Below, piece after piece: positions 4 to 1,102 of a stretch of DNA of 25,528 bases; the first letter of the stretch is position 1, and every line of letters starts with the position of its first letter. This stretch comes from a virus. The stretch is from the IMG/VR virus record IMGVR_UViG_3300025646_000331, positions 1 to 25,528 of that record; one strand, written 5' to 3'. The notes beneath the pieces are model-generated. The model ran no database searches. It was given only the letters and a program-made list of their open reading frames with translations, and was not told the origin of the DNA. Both the position numbers and the translations under genes were made by a program.

Positions 4-80
<77 letters not shown>

Positions 81-85
81 ATTAT

Positions 86-162
86 CTCCGTGTAGCGCAA
101 CCGGATAGCGCAACAGCCTTCTAAGCTGTGGGTTGTAGGTTCAAGTCCTACCGCGGAGGCCA
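86..162 (+). tRNA. tRNA-Arg (anticodon TCT)
   Basis: Acceptor stem CTCCGTG/CGCGGAG pairs fully with one G-T (86-92/152-158), and CCA is encoded at 160-162. The anticodon stem ACAGC/GCTGT (113-117/125-129) encloses CTTCTAA, giving TCT at 120-122, which reads AGA. AGA is common in the reading frames here (many Arg codons are aga), so the tRNA plausibly supplements a host with different codon use; that last point is inference. Confidence 0.93.
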
Positions 163-171
163 AAAAGTTTC

Positions 172-248
172 GGGCCTATAGCTCAGTTGGTTAGAGCCGC
201 GCCCTCATAAGGCGTTGGTCCTTGGTTCGAGTCCAAGTGGGCCCACCA
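172..248 (+). tRNA. tRNA with anticodon CAT, probably tRNA-Ile2
   Basis: Acceptor stem GGGCCTA/TGGGCCC (172-178/238-244) with CCA at 246-248; anticodon stem GCGCC/GGCGT (199-203/211-215) with loop CTCATAA, anticodon CAT at 206-208. CAT could mean elongator Met or the lysidine-modified Ile2 that reads AUA. The C4-G69 and C5-G68 acceptor pairs are determinants recognised by TilS, and the variable/T region resembles Ile2, so Ile2 is favoured over Met. The CCA end runs directly into a late-promoter box. Confidence 0.9.
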
Positions 249-281: not shown

Positions 282-767
282 ATGAAAATCTTGAAGGAAC
301 TAAACCTAAACGAAGTAAAAGAATTTATCGACAAACAATCACCTCAAACTAAGATATATCTCGGGTGCGATTCCGAAAGATTCAAATTGTATGATGAATG
401 GTACGCTGATTACACTATTGCTATCTGCGTACACATTGATGGTAGACATGGTTGTAGAGTGTTTGGTGAAGTAACTAGAGAAAGAGACTATGACCAACGT
501 AAAGACCGTCCGTCATTAAGATTGATGAACGAAGTGTACAAAGTAGCAGAAGTGTTCGCTAAACTAAAAGAAGTGATCGCTGACCGCCAGATAGAAGTTC
601 ACTTAGATATCAATCCTGATAAGATTTATGGATCATCTTGTGTAGTACAGCAAGCAGTTGGATACATCCGCGGTACTTGCAACGTGATTCCTTTTGTAAA
701 ACCTGATGCTTTTGCGGCTTCAATTGCGGCTGATAGGGGCATGAGTTTGTTACAACAACAAGGATAG
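282..767 (+). CDS. YkuK-type (DUF458) RNase H-fold protein
   Basis: 161 residues from ATG 282. An in-frame ATG at 222 exists but would place the start inside the third tRNA, so 282 is preferred. Visible are the first-strand motif YLGCDS (D30), a central HLDINPD (D109) and the C-terminal KPDAFAASIAAD (D142, D151), which is the pattern of the DUF458/YkuK family, related by fold to RNase H. The biochemical role of the family is not established; a nuclease or RNA-processing role is inferred from the fold. The gene sits between tRNA genes and the tmRNA acceptor piece, which begins about ten bases after its stop, so it is likely cotranscribed with these RNAs. An involvement in RNA maturation is tempting but unproven. 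Confidence 0.75.
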   Translation: MKILKELNLNEVKEFIDKQSPQTKIYLGCDSERFKLYDEWYADYTIAICVHIDGRHGCRVFGEVTRERDYDQRKDRPSLRLMNEVYKVAEVFAKLKEVIADRQIEVHLDINPDKIYGSSCVVQQAVGYIRGTCNVIPFVKPDAFAASIAADRGMSLLQQQG

Positions 768-775
768 TACGATAT

Positions 776-833
776 TCGTTGAAGCATGTAATAGGAAGTT
801 TGGACGGCGGTTCGATTCCGCCCAGCTCCACCA
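776..833 (+). ncRNA. ssrA: tmRNA acceptor piece (permuted ssrA, 3' half)
   Basis: The segment ends in a T arm GGCGG-TTCGATT-CCGCC (806-810/818-822), acceptor strand CAGCTCC (823-829), discriminator A and CCA (831-833). This is the usual 3' end of tmRNA, but there is no D arm or anticodon arm 5' of it. Its acceptor strand pairs with GGGGCTG at 880-886, over 40 bases DOWNSTREAM, including the G3-U70-type pair (882/827) that specifies alanine. GCATGT at 784-789 can pair with GCATGT at 912-917 to form helix P2. The gene is therefore circularly permuted. The 5' end is approximate. Confidence 0.9.
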
Positions 834-879
834 ATAGTACATTTACTGTACTATATCATACACTAAGTGTATTATTGAT
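834..879 (+). other. tmRNA intervening segment with two hairpins
   Basis: The 46 bases between the CCA end of the acceptor piece and the first G of the coding piece hold two perfect six-pair hairpins: AGTACA/TGTACT (836-841/847-852) and ATACAC/GTGTAT (858-863/867-872). In known permuted tmRNAs such a segment is cut out, giving two RNA pieces. The hairpins may present the ends to RNase P, RNase Z-like or other processing enzymes (inference). Confidence 0.8.
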
Positions 880-1066
880 GGGGCTGACCAGGGTTCGACA
901 GGCGACTGAAGGCATGTGGAGAATCAGTCAAAGCAGAAGACTGTGAGGGTTGGGGATTCCCGGCCGAAGAAGCAAAAAATATAATTGCAAACGACAATTA
1001 TTACACTGAGGAACTTCGCCTAGCGGCGTAAACTCACGGGGCTGGTCACCTTGTAATCAAACGACT
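880..1066 (+). ncRNA. ssrA: tmRNA coding piece (permuted ssrA, 5' half)
   Basis: It starts GGGGCTGACC-AGGGTTCGACAGG, the conserved 5' end of tmRNA with its tRNA-like D loop region, followed by the P2 strand (912-917). A PK1-type stem GGTTGGG/CCCGGCC (948-954/959-965) follows, then the A-rich lead into the resume codon, the tag frame (987-1031) and a further paired region. The ACGACTAAG at 1061-1069 resembles the E. coli sequence just before P2's 3' strand, so the break in the gene falls between that point and P2. The RNA rescues stalled ribosomes together with SmpB, which is presumably supplied by the host because no smpB lies in the window. The 3' end is approximate and runs into the terminator. 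Confidence 0.92.
987..1031 (+). other. tmRNA tag reading frame ANDNYYTEELRLAA
   Basis: From the resume codon GCA (987) the frame reads ANDNYYTEELRLAA and then TAA (1029-1031). The AND start and the LAA end are typical of proteolysis tags; the terminal LAA is the ClpXP-recognised end. The ANDN start is common in alphaproteobacterial tags. Confidence 0.93.
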
Positions 1067-1095
1067 AAGGAAGGGACTTCGGTCCCTTCCTTTTT
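1067..1095 (+). terminator. Rho-independent terminator of tmRNA
   Basis: Perfect 11-pair stem AAGGAAGGGAC/GTCCCTTCCTT (1067-1077/1082-1092) capped by a TTCG tetraloop and followed by a T run. It ends the tRNA/tmRNA transcription unit. Confidence 0.95.
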
Positions 1096-1102
1096 GCCTG
1101 CG

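Follow-up and report, generated by a model that had tools for sequence, protein, structure and literature searches.

Two-piece tmRNAs of phages are already known as such from publications: 53 unique examples, 50 of them aquatic, were found among 18,146 phage genomes, with that of the OM43 phage Melnitz treated in detail (PMC9004378), a 2025 database holds 79 phage tmRNAs (PMC11915505), and both tmRNAs and SmpB have been reported from huge phages (PMC7162821). Discussion of the two-piece form in phages has so far been mostly about Melnitz, which is of the alpha type. The locus described here leads to a much larger set of the beta (betaproteobacterial) type, which nearly all large records from one group of jumbo phages carry. 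It lies in the window, that is the whole stretch of 25,528 bases analysed, a metagenomic fragment held as an IMG/VR record, and very probably represents a functional, phage-owned, beta-type two-piece tmRNA in the tRNA/translation-support region of a jumbo myophage related to PA5oct and Phosso.

Anatomy and phage setting of the locus

The features of the locus are as follows, with coordinates in the window.

4..248, + strand: end of a tRNA array, with tRNA-Ile(gat), tRNA-Arg(tct) and tRNA-Met(cat) (ARAGORN, Rfam)
282..767, + strand: gene for an RNase H-like protein of 161 aa (Pfam PF04308, 1.6e-16; phrog_11311, 2.7e-57)
771..833, + strand: acceptor half, with the P2 3′ strand within 771-789; mature 5′ end approximate (RF04321 alignment, sequence, covariation)
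806-822, + strand: T arm, T stem 806-810/818-822
823-829, + strand: acceptor 3′ strand (CAGCTCC), followed by A73 at 830 and an encoded CCA at 831-833
834..879, + strand: intervening sequence (IVS), 46 nt, no ORF, with a conserved TGAT at 876-879 directly 5′ of the coding half
880..1066, + strand: coding half, with the acceptor 5′ strand at 880-886 (GGGGCTG) and the D-loop region (RF04321 and RF01850 alignments)
912-930, + strand: part of the coding half that contains the P2 5′ strand
about 926-970, + strand: P3/PK1 region of the coding half, PK1 read by eye
987..1031, + strand: tag reading frame, GCA to TAA, encoding ANDNYYTEELRLAA and a stop (ARAGORN, sequence)
1045-1070, + strand: PK2-like element (GTC/GAC with CCTT/AAGG), read by eye
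1067..1096, + strand: terminator hairpin of 11 bp with a UUCG loop, then a T run (fold)

The original prediction of a permuted two-piece tmRNA is borne out by two programs: ARAGORN calls a permuted tmRNA (tmRNA*) at 741-1122, and the Rfam model RF04321 (tmRNA_permuted) matches 771-1031 with 104.2 bits (E 1.2e-19; cut-off 47). The older model beta_tmRNA (RF01850) matches 727-1093 with 77.9 bits (E 7.5e-24), just below its cut-off of 84, which is likewise missed by the closest relative, L194 (77.3 bits), and reached by 17 of the 20 relatives scanned. Among the overlapping clan matches in the window the best one kept is RF01850 and not alpha_tmRNA (RF01849), and the T loop reads TTCGATT, the alpha-type T loop being absent.

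The T arm/CCA half precedes the coding half, and strands 823-829 and 880-886 pair over seven positions, the third pair being G882-U827 (G3-U70), all where they had been predicted. The two-piece nature of the window tmRNA is supported by homology. The predicted extent of 776 to 1066 proved too short at both ends, as pairing begins at about 771, 3 bases after the RNase H-like stop codon (767), and the gene reaches the terminator at about 1096. The terminator hairpin folds at -19.2 kcal/mol (z -5.4); a consensus scan did not list it. No promoter of its own was seen for the window tmRNA, and a T4-type late promoter, TATAAATA, was considered 5′ of the gene and rejected, as it is absent in the window and TATAAAT occurs nearby in only a few relatives. 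Just 3′ of the tmRNA, a 26-codon ORF (1115-1195; MNITELDKFKLEDAVKIAVLNEILKK) repeats the start of a 444-aa gene at 1773 (MQITELDKFKLEDAVKFHDELNP..., 1773-1850), a partial gene duplication.

Conservation of the stems was assessed in 14 phage sequences, all distinct. The acceptor (P1) and T stems are paired in 100% of cells, and although sequences were extracted only with six or more of the 7 acceptor pairs and four or more of the 5 T-stem pairs, a bias toward pairing, all have 7/7 and 5/5. Both-sided changes occur in 7 of the 12 pairs, with a covariation of 0.49 against 0.11 in shuffled data, and G3-U70 is invariant (14/14, the window also). The GCATGT strands at 784-789 and 912-917, from which P2 had been predicted, are present; the pairing itself is putative, as a partner-swap test between the pieces was weakly positive (own partners -15.06 kcal/mol, shuffled -13.99 +/- 0.44, about 2.4 sd). 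The tag frame of the window has a resume codon and a stop and ends in A-A, as do the tags of nearly all relatives, diverged ones included. Tags of about 25-33 residues, for example ANFNALDNVTFVDFSRAKDYVANEDFALAA, are seen in some phage tmRNAs (L199, L090 and others). Alpha-like T loops (for example GGGGGCAGTGCCC) are carried by the phage tmRNAs L190, L312, L313, L316 and L325; apart from this, L190, L312 and L313 have beta-type scores, and here an exchange of the acceptor half is possible.

The window tmRNA is a phage gene, as originally proposed. Other genes of the record code for a UvsX-like recombinase, a single-strand-binding protein and a terminase that shares about 50% identity with the terminases of the jumbo phages PA5oct and Phosso. 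The RNase H-fold gene predicted just upstream is confirmed by its Pfam match; it has the tRNA array on its 5′ side and the tmRNA on its 3′ side. An independent sister contig (L083/L095) has the same tmRNA 3′ of 24 tRNA genes, together with the same RNase H-like gene, and the arrangement in IMGVR_UViG_3300007960_000602 matches that of the window; megablast of the region against phage records gave no match. That the gene is bacterial and sits on a mis-assembled or contaminating contig, a thought invited by a 25.5-kb metagenomic fragment, is barely credible in view of the phage genes on the record, the same arrangement in IMGVR_UViG_3300007960_000602, and the same kind of gene in the isolate phages Phosso, BUCTxx99 and FBPa45.

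The intervening sequence and the protein genes nested in it in relatives

The ends of the IVS pair with each other and prolong the acceptor helix, such that A73, C75 and A76 of the precursor are base-paired to the TGAT before the coding half, a motif that nearly every phage has at this place. Over 28 phage loci, the first nine IVS positions form a mean of 8.64 pairs; when the partners are swapped, the figure is 5.73 +/- 0.23. The precursor hairpin of the window folds at -30.9 kcal/mol (z -7.8), a stability reached by 0 of 500 shuffled versions of the IVS. The helix is present in most beta-type bacteria and absent from most alpha-type ones, and the IVS measures mostly 23-382 nt in phages versus 5-42 nt in the sampled beta-type bacteria. 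Two permuted phage tmRNAs, L185 and L310, have an IVS of only 4 nt and no extended helix. The IVS helix may serve processing, for example as a substrate of RNase III.

In four relatives (L186, L192, L193 and L201) the IVS holds an ORF, the start of which is preceded by an SD-like sequence beside the CCA and the end of which is provided by the conserved TGA. The 122-aa ORF of L201 recurs with 91-100% identity in 13 contigs (L315-L327; for example L315:801-1169), and in all 13 it lies exactly between the two tmRNA halves. Its differences at first, second and third codon positions number 5/4/27 between L327 and L315 and 7/1/21 for L324, so that most fall at third positions and the ORF is therefore under selection at the protein level. 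The T arms flanking this ORF are of three types, which suggests recombination between the cargo and the tmRNA arms. The protein has a QSKGLG motif that is GNAT-like by eye; neither Pfam nor PHROGs identified the nested ORFs, and the 122-aa ORF has no Pfam match. A domain 67% similar to it occurs in L328 within a longer open frame, outside any tmRNA. A literature search, mostly outside subscription journals, found no description of protein genes in a tmRNA IVS; protein genes inside a discarded segment of a tmRNA gene, as seen in these relatives, would constitute a new gene architecture.

Distribution and origin of the beta-type family

The tmRNA belongs to a large, little-described beta-type family in giant phages. 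In a survey of 50 records related to the window through the terminase or the RNase H-like gene, RF04321 exceeds its cut-off in 27, and in 21 of the 23 that are at least 100 kb long. RF01850 is the best older model at all 20 relatives' loci scanned, whereas phage L198, Phosso and Melnitz are of the alpha type. An unpermuted copy, named by the original prediction as what would speak against it, was sought in the same 50 records: no one-piece tmRNA exceeds the RF00023 cut-off, and the weak RF00023 matches fall on tRNAs or on one or other half of the permuted gene. No permuted tmRNA was found in PA5oct, Vibrio phage 2.275.O or CBB.

The family extends to isolates. Both beta-type isolate records examined, Stenotrophomonas phage BUCTxx99 (OR529408.1, L310) and Pseudomonas phage FBPa45 (ON857939.1, L311), carry a permuted tmRNA that is unannotated in GenBank, as does the Phosso record (PV764938.1, L226/L243). 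The Pseudomonas phages SM1, PaMx31 and UF_RH6 share a T-arm match and are known from that match alone. The hosts of FBPa45 and BUCTxx99, Pseudomonas and Stenotrophomonas, can be cultured, which makes it possible to test what benefit a phage draws from having a tmRNA of its own. Both of these bacteria normally use a one-piece tmRNA.

A decaying passenger acquired from a host and without function would be in keeping with a diverged sequence that stays below the RF01850 cut-off, yet this reading is very improbable: the same gene recurs on an independent contig, pairing is perfect with compensatory changes across phages, the IVS helix is strongly non-random, and the gene is near-universal in large relatives.

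In trees the window and L194 are sisters (100/99), with the L194 tmRNA 73-79% identical, and the window groups with beta-type sequences, split 100/100 from alpha. On this split and the retention of RF01850 as the best match, an alpha or SAR11 origin is rejected. The original prediction also held that the phage had captured the gene from a host whose own tmRNA is permuted; the tree places a phage, L194, nearest, without a close bacterial relative, and the bacterial sequences nearest to the window tmRNA are distant. As there is no close bacterial donor and relatives occur in phages of Pseudomonas and Stenotrophomonas, capture from a host of this kind is unproven. The trees conflict on which group is basal: an early tree placed the bacteria inside the phages, changed sampling reversed this, and AU tests reject neither phages nor bacteria as one clade (p 0.25-0.34). 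A phage-to-bacteria direction is thus dropped, and because the trees depend on sampling and the AU tests do not decide, no direction of transfer is claimed.

Among bacteria, a strong permuted match is found in at least 17 of 399 sampled genomes of the order of Thauera (G058), a lower bound given the strict filters. A full one-piece tmRNA (177-230 bits) is present as well in eight of the 16 bacterial genomes that have the permuted form: four of Variovorax/Roseateles (L252-L255), two of Stenotrophomonas (L250-L251), L291 and L293. A permuted copy beside a full one-piece gene indicates that the permuted one was gained horizontally, and the eight genomes suggest a mobile gene. Some two-form genomes have odd tags, for example ANDSFYLKQA or ANADYYDQNEQKELLAA.

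A wider proposal can be put forward tentatively. The beta-type permuted tmRNA might be mainly a mobile gene disseminated by phages, found in most of the large records from a group of jumbo phages as well as in phages of one-piece hosts, and transferred to bacteria, in which it would be an additional or sometimes the sole copy; its IVS, cut out in maturation, would be a helix-closed cargo slot for phage protein genes, with one transcript yielding both a rescue RNA and an mRNA, and the window copy would be an empty slot.

Proposed function and comparison with known systems

The gene probably shares a transcript with the upstream tRNA array and RNase H-like gene, with transcription ending at the terminator. 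In the predicted precursor the acceptor stem and the IVS would form one long hairpin, from which host tRNA-processing enzymes would remove the IVS, with RNase P acting at G880, 3′ trimming to CCA833 and perhaps cleavage of the long helix by RNase III. The products would be two pieces, acceptor and coding, joined through P1 and P2. Charging by host AlaRS would occur via G3-U70, and with host SmpB and EF-Tu the charged tmRNA may enter stalled ribosomes and add ANDNYYTEELRLAA, the LAA end of which should be a ClpXP degron. The most likely role is ordinary trans-translation, presumably of benefit to a phage that keeps its own tRNA set too.

The original prediction spoke of the phage's own ribosome rescue, which would need host SmpB; as no SmpB match was found in the 50 related records (positive control: 10 of 14 genomes), activity would depend on the host protein. 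The lack of SmpB in relatives would also suit a decoy or inhibitor, a folded RNA that titrates host SmpB or AlaRS and so blocks host trans-translation, and there is a parallel in mycobacteriophage DS6A, which has little beyond the tRNA-like domain, a similar molecule inhibiting tmRNA (PMC4131195; PMC11915505). Such a role is improbable for the window tmRNA, however, as the tag frame with its stop is intact, the PK1 and PK2-like regions have been retained, and the A-A tag ends persist in diverged relatives, a feature for which a pure decoy would have no use. Ordinary trans-translation remains the preferred reading.

Four systems invite comparison. L194 (IMGVR_UViG_3300021962_008382), the closest relative, has GCATGT P2 strands identical to those of the window, whereas its T stem is GGGGG/CCCCC instead of GGCGG/CCGCC, its tag is ANDDVYNLALAA, and about 3 kb separate its tmRNA from its RNase H-like gene. 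The bacterial beta_tmRNA (RF01850, for example in Thauera) shares with the window the best older model, the normal TTCGATT T loop, a PK2-like CCTTGT..AAA motif and a helix-forming IVS; it differs in that the window falls below its cut-off (77.9 versus 84 bits) and has a longer tag, and in that the phage IVS is longer. Sinorhizobium phage Phosso is likewise a jumbo phage with a related terminase (50%) and a permuted tmRNA (113 bits), unlike the window in being of the alpha type (RF01849, 108 bits), with an IVS of 410 nt and a GenBank record without tmRNA annotation.

The tmRNA of the OM43 phage Melnitz (PMC9004378) resembles that of the window in being phage-borne and permuted, with an ANDN- tag and a match to RF04321 (113 bits). 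It is of the alpha type (RF01849, 106.7 bits), whereas the window is of the beta type, and its IVS is 142 nt long versus 46 nt. No riboswitch in the window reaches its Rfam cut-off, in line with the original prediction, which had, however, reversed the comparison by taking the Melnitz riboswitch to lie upstream: a glutamine riboswitch is located downstream in Melnitz (L223, 2612-2660), after the tmRNA match at 2227-2559. Unlike that of Melnitz, the window tmRNA lies in the tRNA region of a jumbo phage.
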